Below, piece by piece: positions 1 to 6,895 of a stretch of 6,895 nucleotides of DNA. Under the pieces are notes generated by a model. The model ran no database searches, was not told the DNA's origin, and worked only from the letters and a program-made list of their open reading frames with translations. Location of the stretch: assembly GCA_003696125.1 (NCBI GenBank), contig RFHZ01000090.1:1-6895 (forward strand). The letters run 5' to 3'. The DNA comes from Nitrospinota bacterium. Lineage in GTDB: Bacteria; Tectomicrobia; Entotheonellia; J063. How positions within the stretch are numbered: position 1 is the stretch's first letter; each line of letters starts with the position of its first letter. Made by a program: the position numbers and the translations under genes.

Positions 1-828
1 CAGCGGTTGCTGTTTGAGGGTCGATTTTCGCAGAGAGAGGAGATGCTGAAAGACCTGCGAGTTGACAAACTTCTGCATGGCCTTTTCCGGGGTATCGGCG
101 ATGCTTACCACTAGCTGGGGAGCAATGGTGATCGTGGCAGGATTCCGTCCAGCTGCTTCTGCCATGCTGCGGATACGATCTACCCGTTGACGGATTTCCT
201 CTGGACTCAGGATGGCCGGCAACCAGCCATCACCGTACCGGGCGACACGCTGCATCCCCTGCTCAGAATTCCCCCCGATCCAGACCGGTAACGGGTTCTG
301 CAGGGGCTTGGGGTACATTTCCACCCCTTCAAAGCGGATGTACTTTCCTTGAAAGCTCGCTCTACGATCATGGAGTAAGGTGCGAAGAGCCTGTATCCCT
401 TCATCGAGCATCTCACCACGCTGCCAGCCGCGTGCGCTCGGGTGTACTGCTTCAAACTCTTCCCGGTAAGCACCGATTCCTACCCCGAGGATGAGACGAC
501 CACCAGACATCACGTCGAGTGTAGCCGCCTGCTTGGCCAGCACCACCGGATCACGGACCGGGAGCACGGCAACGGCGGTTTGTAACCGGAGCCGGGTGGT
601 AGCCGCAGCCACAAAAGCCAGGGCAACAAAGATATCGTAGTAGCGGGGCGGATCTGGCCATTCTGCCGCCACGTATCGTTGCGTGGTCAGGTGATCATTT
701 CCCCCCACATGATGGTAACCCAGGCGTTCGGCAGCCTGTGCGATCCGGATCAAGGTCCCGGCATCTCCAAACGGTACCGGATACATCAACCCCTCCATCC
801 CGGTACTCAGTCCGACTCCAAACTGCAT
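1..828 (-). CDS. Luciferase-like (LLM class) F420/flavin-dependent oxidoreductase, 3' end cut by window edge
   Basis: The frame stays open from the ATG at 828 to the window edge, giving 276 residues with no stop. The protein is a TIM-barrel oxidoreductase of the bacterial-luciferase superfamily, probably cytoplasmic and using F420 or FMN. Family marks are the N-terminal MQFGVGLST strand, AERLGYHHV (33-41), the LDVMSGGRLILGVGIG block (104-119) and PLPVWIGGNSEQGMQRVARY (179-198) followed by GDGWLP. Members are usually about 290-330 residues, so only the C-terminal helices should be missing. The start is supported by AAGGAGG (845-839) and a nearer AGGAG (836-832). The upstream SD overlaps the stop codon of the preceding gene, suggesting translational coupling. 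It is the third gene of the minus-strand operon. The substrate cannot be predicted: this family is large, and F420 versus FMN use is inferred from overall resemblance. Confidence 0.93.
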   Translation of the reverse strand, partial: MQFGVGLSTGMEGLMYPVPFGDAGTLIRIAQAAERLGYHHVGGNDHLTTQRYVAAEWPDPPRYYDIFVALAFVAAATTRLRLQTAVAVLPVRDPVVLAKQAATLDVMSGGRLILGVGIGAYREEFEAVHPSARGWQRGEMLDEGIQALRTLLHDRRASFQGKYIRFEGVEMYPKPLQNPLPVWIGGNSEQGMQRVARYGDGWLPAILSPEEIRQRVDRIRSMAEAAGRNPATITIAPQLVVSIADTPEKAMQKFVNSQVFQHLLSLRKSTLKQQPL

Positions 829-1847: not shown

Positions 1848-2738
1848 TTAAAATCCAAAACCAAAGAGTTGATTGGCGTTTGCAAACGCGACCTTCCGGA
1901 TATGCTCGGGAGGAATCCCGGCCCGTCGCATGGCACGGATCGCCTTGGGAATGGCCAGGAGATCGGTGGAACGGTACGGGATGTGGTCTGAGTTGAGCAG
2001 GATGCGATCAGGACCGTAATGCTGTACCCATTCCACCACCTGTTGGGGAGGGATGGGACGGAGTTCGCTACCGATACTCAGCGCACACCAGGCCCGCGTC
2101 TCTTTATGGACAAAGTCGATGATGGTCGCATCCACATGATCGATCACGAGCAGGCGATGCTCCAGCCCCACGCGCTCCACTATCTCCAGATCCTGCTGCA
2201 GATAGTGCAGGCGGAACCTTTCCGGAGGAATCGCCTCCTGCGTGGCCACTCCCCCCAGGAAATCCTGGCTCTTCTTGGGCGTAGGGGTATGGAGGATCAG
2301 CGGTTTTCCCGCATCTGCTGCCACCCGCATCTGCGCTTCCAGGCAACGCGCCTGATCTGCCAGCGGCCAGGTAAACCCAAAATACTGTCCCGGATCGAGT
2401 CCCACTTCTCCCACCGCAACCACGTGCGGGTCCTGCAGGTAGCGGGGAAGGAGTTTAACCAGTTGCGGCCAATCCCGCACCCGGGTCATGGCACTGATCC
2501 CCACGGCACACTTCAGGCGAATGAAGTGCTTCTCCTCCGAGACCCGGGCCAGGCGAATGGGGTTTTCCCAGAAGCGACGAATCTCCTCTGGTCCCGGCAC
2601 CTCTTCCCAGATCTCCCGGTACACATGGGGGTTACCGCAGGAGAGCACCGCACCGACCATGCCCGACATCCCCAAAAGCTCCCAGTCATCCCAGCTCAGG
2701 GCCTGCATGTGGTTGTGGCTATCGATGTAGGAGTGCAT
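1848..2738 (-). CDS. TatD-fold metal-dependent hydrolase (amidohydrolase-like TIM barrel)
   Basis: Protein of 296 residues from the chosen start. The metal-site pattern of TatD-type hydrolases is complete: DSHNH with H8 and H10, GEVGLD with E111, LILHTP with H150, VIDHVD with H201 and NSDH with D251. The layout (YIDSHNH start, LLPRYLQDPHVVAVGEVGLD, the late NSDHIPYRSTDLLAIPKA segment) recalls the COG1099 group of predicted TatD-fold hydrolases rather than the nuclease TatD itself. The reaction is probably hydrolysis of an ester, amide or lactone, but the substrate is unknown. An upstream in-frame ATG at 2789 would add 17 residues. I prefer 2738 because AAGGAG (2751-2746) sits seven bases before it, the family starts right before the HxH strand, and nothing like an SD precedes 2789. 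It is the first gene of the minus-strand operon. Confidence 0.88.
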   Translation of the reverse strand: MHSYIDSHNHMQALSWDDWELLGMSGMVGAVLSCGNPHVYREIWEEVPGPEEIRRFWENPIRLARVSEEKHFIRLKCAVGISAMTRVRDWPQLVKLLPRYLQDPHVVAVGEVGLDPGQYFGFTWPLADQARCLEAQMRVAADAGKPLILHTPTPKKSQDFLGGVATQEAIPPERFRLHYLQQDLEIVERVGLEHRLLVIDHVDATIIDFVHKETRAWCALSIGSELRPIPPQQVVEWVQHYGPDRILLNSDHIPYRSTDLLAIPKAIRAMRRAGIPPEHIRKVAFANANQLFGFGF

Positions 2739-2959: not shown

Positions 2960-2975
2960 TGCTCTTTTCCTGCCA
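2960..2975 (-). promoter_or_regulatory. Candidate sigma-54 (-24/-12) promoter of the hydrolase/oxidoreductase operon
   Basis: Read on the minus strand the site is TGGCAGGAAAAGAGCA. The invariant GG and GC are ten bases apart, and TGGCA plus the following G match the TGGCACG-N4-TTGCW consensus (9 of 12 defined positions). Transcription would start near 2949, leaving a leader of about 210 bases. It shares TGGCA-K-G-A-R-A-A-N-N-GC-W with the sites at 3024 and 4744, which is the main support. The -12 element (GAGCA) is imperfect. Confidence 0.55.
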
Positions 2976-3023
2976 GCAGGATGTGTGCTGCCTTCGCCAC
3001 GGTACCCTTGCCCGGGAGGAGGA

Positions 3024-3039
3024 TGGCATGAGAAATGCA
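3024..3039 (+). promoter_or_regulatory. Candidate sigma-54 (-24/-12) promoter of the response regulator gene
   Basis: The site is TGGCATGAGAAATGCA, with GG (3025-3026) and GC (3037-3038) ten bases apart and 10 of 12 defined consensus positions matched. It is the best of the three sites. Transcription would start near 3050, giving a leader of about 135 bases before the regulator ATG. It suggests that the regulator drives its own synthesis, as is common for NtrC-type activators. Confidence 0.65.
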
Positions 3040-3142
3040 ACCATAAATCTTCAGAGAAAAGTTACAAAAATCGAGGAAGGGGGTGAGAGCATTGACTCGA
3101 TGATAGCAGAAGGGAGCTTGAGGAGAGATGCCGGCTTGACCG

Positions 3143-3167
3143 CCTGTGGGTGAGAGGGGTCCACAGG
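3143..3167 (+). repeat. Hairpin just upstream of the regulator's ribosome binding site
   Basis: CCTGTGG (3143-3149) and CCACAGG (3161-3167) are perfectly complementary around an 11-base loop. The stem ends two bases before the AAGGAGGTGA ribosome binding site, so in RNA it could affect access to that site. As DNA its centre lies about 206 bases upstream of the predicted left-facing sigma-54 start, so it could also be an activator site for that promoter. Which role applies cannot be decided from sequence. Confidence 0.45.
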
Positions 3168-3185
3168 AAAAGGAGGTGAGGTACC

Positions 3186-4541
3186 ATGCCGAGAGTCCAT
3201 GTGTTAATTGTGGACGACGACGAAATAGTCCGGAGTACGATCGGTGAAACCTTGGCCGGACGGGGGTACCAGATAAGTGCGGTGGCTTGTGGAGACGAGG
3301 CCTGTCAAGTAATCACCCGACACGACATCGATGTGGTCCTCCTCGATGTCGTAATGCCGGGGATGGGAGGACTGGAAGTCCTTGGCTGGATCAAAGAGCA
3401 TGCACCGTTTACCGAAGTGATCATGTTGACCGGGTACGGCACCATCGATAGTGCCGTACAGGCGATGCAGCTTGGAGCGAGCCATTACCTGACCAAACCC
3501 TGCCAGCTTGATGCCCTCGATGCAGTGATTCAGAAAGCCTACGAAACCCGCCAGAAAAGACTCTTACAAAGCGAATTGACTTACCGTGAGCGCTTTCCCG
3601 AACTCATCGGCCAGAGTTTACCGCTCAAGGCTATCAAGGGGATGATCGAGAAAGTTGCTCCCACCGACTCCACCGTCCTCGTCCAGGGGGAGAGCGGAGT
3701 GGGCAAAGAGTTGATTGCCCGGTGTATTCACCGGCACAGTCCCCGCAGTTCGTATCCGTTTGTGGTGGTCGATTGCACCGTGTTGCAGGAAAATTTGCTA
3801 CAGAGTGAACTGTTCGGCCATGAACGTGGATCGTTTACCGGAGCGATTCGACGGAAACCGGGACTCTTTGAAGTGGCGCACCGGGGCACGCTTTTCCTGG
3901 ACGAAATCGGTGAGATGACGCTCTCCACTCAGGCCCAGCTCCTGCGCGTCCTGGAAACAGGACGGTTCCGTCGTTTAGGAGGAACCAGGGATATCCTGAC
4001 CGACGTCCGCATCATCGGAGCCACCAAGCAAGACCTGCAGGAGCGTATGGCTGCTGGCCAGTTCCGGGAAGACCTCTACTATCGCCTGAACGTCATTACC
4101 ATCACCCCACCCCCTCTGCGAGAGAGGCCGGAGGATATCCCTCTTTTGGTGGAATACTTCCTCCACCACATGCCCATACCGAAAAAGCGGAAGAAGCGCA
4201 TCACGCCTGAAGCCATGTCCATCCTGCAGTCTTATTCCTGGCCGGGAAACATCCGGGAGTTGCGCAATATCCTAGAGCGAGCGGTCATCCTCTCTGAAGG
4301 AGACGAGATCACGGCACGCGATCTCCCGGCTGATCTGCGAGGAGAGCCGAACTTTTGGGTGAAAAACGGCATCCCCATCCTCTCCCTCCCCCAGCTCAAA
4401 GAGCGATACCTGGAGGTGGAGAAACAGCACATTGCCACTCTTCTTGCCAGATATGGCGGTCATCGCTCTACCGTTGCCCGTCTCCTCCAAATCAGTGAAC
4501 GCAACCTCTACCGGAAGATCAAACAATACCAGCTCGACTAG
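3186..4541 (+). CDS. NtrC-family response regulator, sigma-54 enhancer-binding protein
   Basis: Complete protein of 451 residues, the usual length for NtrC-type regulators. The receiver domain (about 4-118) has the acidic pocket D10-D11, phospho-acceptor D54, T82 and K104. The AAA+ domain (about 139-367) has Walker A GESGVGKE (168-175), the sigma-54 contact loop as GSFTGA (215-220, usual form GAFTGA) and Walker B GTLFLDE (234-240). It continues with REDLYYRLNV (294-303) carrying the arginine-finger region, and sensor II WPGNIRELRN (352-361). A Fis-type helix-turn-helix covers about 424-450 (TVARLLQISERNLYRKIKQY). Phosphorylation should promote oligomerisation, binding to upstream sites and ATP-driven opening of sigma-54 promoters. 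The start is fixed by AAGGAGGTGA six bases upstream. No sensor kinase gene is present in the window. Three candidate sigma-54 promoters nearby, one its own, make local control likely. The signal is unknown. Confidence 0.97.
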   Translation: MPRVHVLIVDDDEIVRSTIGETLAGRGYQISAVACGDEACQVITRHDIDVVLLDVVMPGMGGLEVLGWIKEHAPFTEVIMLTGYGTIDSAVQAMQLGASHYLTKPCQLDALDAVIQKAYETRQKRLLQSELTYRERFPELIGQSLPLKAIKGMIEKVAPTDSTVLVQGESGVGKELIARCIHRHSPRSSYPFVVVDCTVLQENLLQSELFGHERGSFTGAIRRKPGLFEVAHRGTLFLDEIGEMTLSTQAQLLRVLETGRFRRLGGTRDILTDVRIIGATKQDLQERMAAGQFREDLYYRLNVITITPPPLRERPEDIPLLVEYFLHHMPIPKKRKKRITPEAMSILQSYSWPGNIRELRNILERAVILSEGDEITARDLPADLRGEPNFWVKNGIPILSLPQLKERYLEVEKQHIATLLARYGGHRSTVARLLQISERNLYRKIKQYQLD

Positions 4542-4558
4542 TCTCCCCTGCTCCTGAC

Positions 4559-4576
4559 CTCGACAGCGCTATCAGG
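4559..4576. promoter_or_regulatory. Distal palindromic activator site (degenerate copy)
   Basis: CTCGACAGCGCTATCAGG matches the perfect palindrome just downstream at 15 of 18 positions, sharing the GACAGCGCT core. The two centres are 22 bp apart, about two helical turns, so proteins bound there would lie on the same DNA face. This fits tandem binding of dimers of an NtrC-type activator. It begins 18 bases after the regulator stop codon. Confidence 0.55.
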
Positions 4577-4579
4577 GAA

Positions 4580-4599
4580 ACCTGACAGCGCTGTCAGGT
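4580..4599. promoter_or_regulatory. Perfect 20-bp palindrome, candidate upstream activator site
   Basis: The core CCTGACAGC (4581-4589) is followed directly by its exact complement GCTGTCAGG, and the flanking A and T extend the match to 20 bp. There is no spacer, so an RNA hairpin would have to open its central pairs, and no U-run follows. A dimeric DNA-binding site is more likely than a terminator. The centre is about 180 bases upstream of the predicted oxidase start site. Binding by the adjacent regulator is inferred from position and the tandem arrangement. Confidence 0.65.
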
Positions 4600-4616
4600 C
4601 ACGGAACATGAGTATA

Positions 4617-4637
4617 GGAGGGGATTTCTCCCTTTTC
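4617..4637 (+). terminator. Weak possible terminator after the regulator gene
   Basis: AGGGGA (4619-4624) can pair with TCCCTT (4629-4634) around a TTTC loop with one G-U pair, followed by TTC. The stem is short and the U-run poor. Read-through from the regulator into the oxidase is therefore possible. Confidence 0.2.
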
Positions 4638-4743
4638 TCCCCTCTCCAGCCTGTCAACCGGGTCAGTCTTCCTCCCTCTATCTCTCGAGGTCTCGCCGGT
4701 GTAAAGCCTTCAGGCTGTAGGGATTGCTCGCCTTGCCCTGTTC

Positions 4744-4759
4744 TGGCATGAAAACCGCT
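4744..4759 (+). promoter_or_regulatory. Candidate sigma-54 (-24/-12) promoter of the multicopper oxidase gene
   Basis: The site is TGGCATGAAAACCGCT. GG (4745-4746) and GC (4757-4758) are ten bases apart, and 9 of 12 defined consensus positions match, with a T or C before TGG as usual. Transcription would start near 4770, giving a leader of about 80 bases. Two tandem palindromes lie about 180 and 200 bases upstream of that start. The -12 half (CCGCT) departs from TTGCT, so the promoter may be weak or strictly activator-dependent. Confidence 0.65.
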
Positions 4760-4851: not shown

Positions 4852-4959
4852 ATGCTGAACCGACGACAGTTTCTACAATGGAGCATGCTGGCTGGAGCAG
4901 GGTTATTGCTTCCTGGCAAATGGAGACTCCCCCGCGCCTTGGCCCTCCCTGTGCCAGGG
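4852..4959 (+). other. Twin-arginine (Tat) signal peptide of the multicopper oxidase
   Basis: The N-terminus MLNRRQFLQWSMLAGAGLLL has the RRxFL twin-arginine motif (R4-R5, F7, L8) followed by a hydrophobic stretch. A cleavage region is plausible around the ALALP segment near residues 33-37. This predicts export of the folded, copper-loaded enzyme. The exact cleavage point is uncertain. Confidence 0.85.
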
Positions 4960-6895
4960 GGAACTCTAGACCCCTTATCCATCCCCAAGTACCAGATGCC
5001 GCTGGTGATCCCCCCGGCCATGCCACGATCGAGAAAGATAAAACGGCGCAAAGGGAAAAATGCTGACTACTACGAAATAGCGGTCAGGCAGTTCACCCAG
5101 GATATCCTCCCCCCCGGCATGGGACTGCCCCCAACGACCGTATGGAGCTACGGTTCGGTCAAATTCCCAGGCACGGTTGCGCAAGGGGGAAGCTTCTTTT
5201 ATCCTGCCTTCACCCTGGAAACAAAGTGGAGGAAACCGGTCGTGGTCAAGTGGATCAACGATCTGGTCGATGTCAACGGCAACTACCTCCCCCATATCCT
5301 GCCGGTAGACCAGACCCTGCACTGGGCCAACCCTCCGGGAGGGATAGATAACCGGGATGGACGGGGAACGGATCAGGCTCCTTATCTGGGCCCTGTCCCT
5401 ATCGTGACCCATGTCCATGGAGCCCACACGACGCAGGAGAGTGATGGGTATCCCGAAGCCTGGTACCTCCCTGCGGCAAACAATATCCCTATCGGTTATG
5501 CCTCTACCGGCACCTATTACGACATCTTCCAGAGGAGTTCTCCCTTAGGGAATCTCTGGTCCCCTGGCAGCGCCGTGTTCGAGTATCCTAATCAACAGCG
5601 AGCCACCACCCTCTGGTATCACGATCATTCCTTAGGGATGACCCGTCTGAACGTGTACGCCGGACCGGCCGGATTCTATATCATCCGTGGGGGGCCTGAT
5701 GATGCGGTGTTCGATACCAGTGGTGCCCGTGCTACCCTGCCTGGGCCGGCTCCTGCCTTAGGTGACCCCCCCGGGATGAAATACTATGAGATCCCCATCG
5801 TCATCCAGGATCGCTCCTTCAATGCGGACGGTTCCCTCTTCTATCCGGATAACCGGGCCTTCTTCGAGGGGTTAACCCCTGCTCAACTGCAGATACCCTT
5901 TATTCCTGACCCGGCCTGTGGAGGAAGCCCCAGCGATGTCCCCCCGATCTGGAATCCGGAGTTCTTCGGGAACACCATGGTGGTCAACGGCCGTACCTGG
6001 CCCTTCCTGGAGGTGGAGCAACGCCGCTACCGTTTCCGCTTCCTGAACGGTTGTAATTCCCGTTTCCTGATCCTGCGGATGAGCAACGGGATGCCGTTCT
6101 GGCAGATCGGGGCGGAAGGAGGCTTTCTCCCTGCACCGGTGATGCTCAACGAACTGCTCATGGCTCCGGCCGAGCGGGCCGATGTGATCGTTGACTTCAC
6201 CAATGTGCCTGTGGGAACAGAGATCCTTCTCCTCAATGTCGGTCCGGATGAACCGTTCGGTGGTGGCATCCCGGGTATCGACTTTCCGGCAGCAGACCCG
6301 AATACGACCGGCCAGGTCATGCAGTTCCGGGTAGTCCCGGCCACCAGCGTCGATACCAGCACCCCTCCTGATCAACTGGTACTCCCTCCCCTGGTGGGAC
6401 CCGGCCTGCCGAGTACCACCAGGCAGGTTTCTCTTAACGAAGAAGAATCCCTGACCGTCTTTGTGCGGACAGAACCGGACGGCAGCATCGTGCTGGATTG
6501 CGCCAGCAACACACCGTTTGGTCCCACCGCGGCGCTACTCGGTACCGTAGCCGGAGGAGCAGGGATTCCACTGCGTTGGAGTGATTTCATCACCGAGAAC
6601 CCGGCCCTCGGTACCACCGAGGTCTGGGAAATCTACAATTTCACCGTGGATGCCCATCCGATCCACGTCCATCTCGTGCAGTTCCAGGTGGTAAATCGCG
6701 AAGACATGACTACAGGGGCGATCCGTGGTCCAGAGCCCTGGGAAACCGGGCTGAAGGATACCGTCATTGCTCTGCCCGGAGAGATCACCCGCATCAAGGC
6801 AACCTTTGATCTGGCCGGGTTATTCGTCTGGCATTGCCATATCGTTGAACACGAGGATAACGAGATGATGCGACCGTATCAGGTCGGTCCACTAC
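4852..6895 (+). CDS. Tat-exported CotA/bilirubin-oxidase-like multicopper oxidase, C-terminus cut by window edge
   Basis: The frame is open from the ATG to the window edge, giving 681 complete codons with no frameshift. The enzyme should couple one-electron oxidation of a substrate (phenols, bilirubin-like compounds or metal ions) to reduction of O2 to water outside the cytoplasm. All four copper-ligand blocks are present: HVH (187-189), WYHDH (255-259), HPIHVH (602-607) and HCHIVEHEDNEMM (661-673), with C662, H667 and axial M672 at the type 1 copper. The CotA subgroup is indicated by SDGYPEAW, YPNQQRATTLWYHDH, TRLNVYAGPAG, SLFYP, MAPAERADVIVDF and MMRP. It is longer than Bacillus CotA (about 513 residues), with inserts such as residues 207-243 and 282-312. 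The start has AGGAGG seven bases upstream and a twin-arginine signal. Little of the C-terminus should be missing. The physiological substrate cannot be read from sequence. Confidence 0.97.
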   Translation, partial: MLNRRQFLQWSMLAGAGLLLPGKWRLPRALALPVPGGTLDPLSIPKYQMPLVIPPAMPRSRKIKRRKGKNADYYEIAVRQFTQDILPPGMGLPPTTVWSYGSVKFPGTVAQGGSFFYPAFTLETKWRKPVVVKWINDLVDVNGNYLPHILPVDQTLHWANPPGGIDNRDGRGTDQAPYLGPVPIVTHVHGAHTTQESDGYPEAWYLPAANNIPIGYASTGTYYDIFQRSSPLGNLWSPGSAVFEYPNQQRATTLWYHDHSLGMTRLNVYAGPAGFYIIRGGPDDAVFDTSGARATLPGPAPALGDPPGMKYYEIPIVIQDRSFNADGSLFYPDNRAFFEGLTPAQLQIPFIPDPACGGSPSDVPPIWNPEFFGNTMVVNGRTWPFLEVEQRRYRFRFLNGCNSRFLILRMSNGMPFWQIGAEGGFLPAPVMLNELLMAPAERADVIVDFTNVPVGTEILLLNVGPDEPFGGGIPGIDFPAADPNTTGQVMQFRVVPATSVDTSTPPDQLVLPPLVGPGLPSTTRQVSLNEEESLTVFVRTEPDGSIVLDCASNTPFGPTAALLGTVAGGAGIPLRWSDFITENPALGTTEVWEIYNFTVDAHPIHVHLVQFQVVNREDMTTGAIRGPEPWETGLKDTVIALPGEITRIKATFDLAGLFVWHCHIVEHEDNEMMRPYQVGPL

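Follow-up and report, generated by a model that had tools for sequence, protein, structure and literature searches.

What would join three sigma-54-type promoters into one regulon, and do the three -24/-12 sites at this locus qualify as such promoters in the first place? The window (the whole stretch of DNA analyzed, 6,895 nucleotides) is the entire contig C263 of a fragmented genome bin of 4.18 Mb in 990 contigs (94.8% complete, 8% contamination). Its features, in order, are:

1 to 828, minus strand: second LLM-class oxidoreductase, truncated by the contig end.
844 to 1845, minus strand: luciferase-like (LLM class) oxidoreductase.
1848 to 2738, minus strand: TatD/amidohydrolase-like gene, first in the leftward operon; its start ATG at 2738 is preceded by AAGGAG, and the open reading frame opens at 2789.
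2903 to 2920, no strand assigned: dyad TGTGCCATTTTGTGCACA (TGT-N12-ACA form), a possible activator site about 120 bp 5' of site 2 and just 3' of site 1.
2960 to 2975, minus strand: site 1, a weak sigma-54-type -24/-12 site TGGCAGGAAAAGAGCA, 221 nt 5' of position 2738, where the first gene of the hydrolase/LLM oxidoreductase operon probably has its start codon.
3024 to 3039, plus strand: site 2, a good sigma-54-type site TGGCATGAGAAATGCA, 146 nt 5' of the regulator start codon.
3186 to 4541, plus strand: NtrC-type response regulator with a receiver domain (PF00072), a sigma-54 AAA+ domain with a GAFTGA-type loop reading GSFTGA (PF00158) and a Fis-type HTH (PF02954).
4552 to 4605, plus strand: inverted repeat in which 22 bp separate CGACAGCGCTATCAGG from CTGACAGCGCTGTCAG; it may consist of tandem activator sites, roughly 160 bp 5' of site 3, or form an RNA hairpin behind the regulator.
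4744 to 4759, plus strand: site 3, a good sigma-54-type site TGGCATGAAAACCGCT, 92 nt 5' of the oxidase start codon at 4852.
4852 to 6895, plus strand: CotA/bilirubin-oxidase-like multicopper oxidase with a Tat-type signal, truncated by the contig end.

Whether the genome has the sigma factor at all was a concern of an earlier note on this DNA, and it does: the bin holds a complete RpoN of 479 amino acids with all three sigma-54 domains (AID, CBD and DBD), encoded in the gene order lptB-rpoN-rapZ. Genes for sigma-54 activators number about 20. Contig C964 (L114) matches part of the sigma-54 DNA-binding domain a second time (24.9 bits), perhaps through a truncated rpoN or contamination. The middle gene of the window had been taken to encode the matching type of activator, and the presence of all three domains listed above bears this out. 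The 6.9-kb contig, truncated on both sides, carries no gene for a histidine kinase; for regulators of this class a cognate kinase is usually, though not necessarily, encoded close by. The multicopper oxidase is closest to CotA.

All three sites lie at the coordinates and on the strands given in the earlier note, as exact matches to TGGCAKGARAANNGCW with zero mismatches and no further match in the window, and each is correctly oriented toward one of the three surrounding transcription units. The rarity claimed for the motif also stood up, TGGCAKGARAANNGCW being absent from 200 of 200 shuffles of the window. Across the genome (4,182,615 bases, 990 contigs) there are four matches, compared with about 0.25 expected under uniform base use by our own arithmetic and none for the reversed control. 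The fourth is on contig C757, 47 nt 5' of an open frame for a TreT-like (trehalose-synthase-like) glycosyltransferase. The suspicion that the motif might be just as common inside genes is not borne out in this genome, where all four matches are intergenic and each points toward a gene. Similarly, when the two intergenic regions were shuffled with their dinucleotides preserved, a trio of GG-N10-GC sites with pairwise differences of at most 4 in 16 bases arose once in 2000 trials, and at least three sites scoring at least 11 bits never arose (0/2000).

Our -24/-12 matrix is approximate, and its scores are usable as a ranking only. By that ranking site 2 is the best in the window (16.0 bits) and site 3 scores 13.9 bits; both have GG and GC ten bases apart in a TGGCAYG-N4-TTGCW-like core. 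High-scoring sites are about 7-13 times denser in intergenic than in coding DNA of the loci fetched from this genome (0.89 vs. 0.107 per kb, about eight times, at 12.5 bits or more and about thirteen times at 15.5 bits or more), a ratio biased upwards because these loci were partly picked for such sites. Sigma-70-type promoter matches around the sites showed no excess over chance. Sites 2 and 3 are thus most likely sigma-54 promoters, as judged from their sequence, with site 1 perhaps a weaker third.

Which protein would activate them? The likeliest targets of the local regulator are the oxidase and its own gene, and we cautiously favor a reading in which sites 2 and 3 are the promoters of an orphan NtrC-type regulator and a CotA-like oxidase, site 1 is perhaps a third promoter, and activation by the regulator involves looping. 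Once phosphorylated, the regulator would occupy an enhancer at a distance of some 100-200 bp, DNA looping from that enhancer would open the sigma-54 RNA polymerase at site 3, and the regulator would probably open its own promoter likewise. Enhancers of the form TGT-N10-12-ACA are common for this protein class and lie mostly 100-250 bp upstream (PMC6615313). The repeat at 4552-4605 includes TATCA-N8-TGACA, and the pattern TRTCA-N8-TGAYA, which like our other enhancer patterns was picked post hoc after inspecting the sequence, has only three places in the genome: two beside the window regulator and its paralog on contig C749, and a third inside an open frame. The core of the repeat, CTGACAGCGCTGTCAG, is unique in the genome.

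Is this repeat read as DNA at all? The strongest competitor to an enhancer, which we take very seriously and would put just short of an even balance, is that the repeat works as an RNA hairpin, ending or protecting the regulator transcript, and plays no role in activation at site 3. The oxidase-region dyad doubles as a very stable hairpin right after the regulator stop codon (-39.9 kcal/mol, z -8.6, with a GAAA loop, starting 10 nt past it) and so may act in RNA, and a weaker hairpin also follows the stop codon of the C749 paralog. Against this, no T tract follows the repeat, and TRTCA-N8-TGAYA recurs in the paralog's divergent promoter region, which is not at a gene end.

Dyads of related form occur elsewhere. 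TGACA/TGTCA dyads lie 3' of the regulator gene both on C749 and in genome G036, with a weak sigma-54-like site after each. On contig C966 (L240, 4644-4803) a TGTCA-N6-TGACA dyad, similar to the FlrA-type motif (PMC4641369), lies about 130 bp 5' of the sigma-54 site TGGCATAGGAAATGCA, with an apparent chemotaxis operon next, and on contig C564 (L241, 3215-3437) one TGTCA-N6-TGACA and two TGACA-N5-TGTCA dyads precede the sigma-54-like site TGGTACGATGTTTGCT. Identical sigma-54-like cores TGGCATGGTATTTGCT were seen on three contigs (L121, L123 and L125), one of them 87 bp 5' of the gene for a universal stress protein and another close to a heavy-metal ATPase.

To return to the favored reading, in which the regulator drives sites 2 and 3, could any of the sites be chance matches rather than promoters? 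For site 1, which this question chiefly concerns, we consider it a doubtful but real prospect: it keeps the GG/GC spacing of a -24/-12 promoter, but its -12 element is GAGC and its score of 11.0 bits is at the in-gene background, about equal to several in-gene sites of the window, and of the 14 matches that its version of the motif, TGGCAGGA, has in other genomes, 13 fell within genes. The four exclusively intergenic matches in this genome and the rarity of such a triple in shuffles argue against chance. Beyond this genome, the TGGCAKGARAANNGCW pattern gave 23 matches in 60 other genomes vs. three for the reversed control; we rejected this excess as a sigma-54 signal, because 17 of the 23 matches fall within genes, which makes most of the excess coding composition and means that the pattern by itself is no sigma-54 promoter signature.

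Does the shared motif then mean one regulon? The earlier note held that motif and activator together join all the units, and of this the rpoN gene, the activator domains and the intergenic sites stand, but the shared motif fails as proof. The -24 to -12 core is contacted by sigma-54, while activators bind elsewhere (PMC4641369, PMC6615313), and since the shared letters lie in that core they cannot carry the inference to a common regulon. Site 3 is matched most closely by the treT-like site CTGTTYTGGCATGAAAAYCGC on a different contig, and in the class-mate G004 near-identical cores lie 5' of an NMT1-type transport-binding protein gene and an aconitase-family gene; near-identical cores 5' of unrelated genes, here and in G004, mean that core similarity is not specific to this locus. 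What would be expected of a regulon is the same enhancer at every member promoter, and the dyad forms differ between the two regions: the TGTCA/TGACA-type dyads of the oxidase region are absent from the divergent region, which carries TGTGC-N8-GCACA only, and comparison of the dyads of both regions found no enhancer that the copper oxidase has in common with the divergent pair. As a specific enhancer TGTGC-N8-GCACA was rejected, with six occurrences in the genome, near chance.

A single activator running all three sites is plausible from the sequence. All three face units flanking a single activator gene, adjacency to targets is usual for this class, whose members often adjoin the genes they activate (PMC6615313), and the dyad at 2903-2920 lies near both site 1 and site 2. 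Nevertheless, with dyad arms that differ (TGTGC vs. TRTCA/TGACA), a weak site 1 and a core likeness that carries no activator specificity, we regard it as rather unlikely that the middle regulator activates the hydrolase/oxidoreductase operon, its own gene and the oxidase as one local regulon. Even less probable is that the sites are sigma-54 promoters served by different activators and are neighbors by position only. The roughly 20 activator genes, the unlike dyads and the recurrence of the core 5' of unrelated genes speak for this; that such activators usually adjoin their targets, and that the window regulator's dyad form recurs beside the C749 paralog, speaks against it.

Where did the regulator come from? 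It appears to be a duplicate of a two-component regulator on C749 that is 65% identical to it and would respond to redox state. The two share the recognition stretch ISERNLYRKIK, their DNA-reading helices being nearly identical, and the divergent region of C749, like that of the window, has back-to-back sigma-54 sites, together with a TGTCA-N8-TGACA dyad. The C749 system differs in that the paralog is adjoined, in the same operon, by a sensor kinase that has two CxxCH motifs (c-heme-like; L110, 5811-7790), and in that it faces genes for a cytochrome c, an iron-sulphur protein, an NrfD-like protein and an ArrA/PhsA-like molybdenum oxidoreductase, with no copper oxidase. Outside this genome, no regulator above 51% identity, the value for that of G036, was found in the genomes searched, the nearest of which are class-mates, and the class-mates have neither the oxidase nor a regulator that is closely orthologous. 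Scanning named genomes brought up general sigma-54 activators only (38-49% identity); the 350-bp stretches upstream of 78 such activator genes held no strong sigma-54 site, but many of them are probably coding and so they give a poor base rate. One could imagine that a duplicated c-heme-sensing redox regulator lost its kinase, took over the oxidase and the LLM operon, and still reads the enhancer of its paralog, which would wire two regulons together; we give this little credence.

If the favored reading of a regulator acting on its own promoter and that of the oxidase, and perhaps on site 1, is true, a multicopper oxidase and an oxidoreductase operon would be added to the genes under sigma-54 control in a bacterial class of which few genomes have been sampled. 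The locus further illustrates that likeness within the -24/-12 core does not prove a common regulon, and that it is the enhancers that decide.

How does the locus compare with known systems? Predicted sigma-54 regulons of Desulfovibrio and Clostridiales share with it the -24/-12 core, an adjacent activator gene and palindromic enhancers, TGT...ACA or GTCA...TGAC in form (PMC4641369, PMC6615313), but they are backed by conservation in several genomes, whereas the circuit in the window is read from one. Among systems studied by experiment, CorSR of Myxococcus comes closest (PMC3707914). In the M. xanthus CorSR/curA operon, which has four putative sigma-54 promoters, an NtrC-type sigma-54-dependent response regulator is clustered with a multicopper oxidase (CuoA), and the window likewise has a multicopper oxidase gene next to that of a sigma-54 response regulator. 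The CorSR operon also includes the CorS kinase and copper-handling genes, whereas our contig is without a kinase, P-type ATPase or other copper gene, and a copper response of the window's circuit is putative. In kind, the locus is an ordinary bacterial control circuit.
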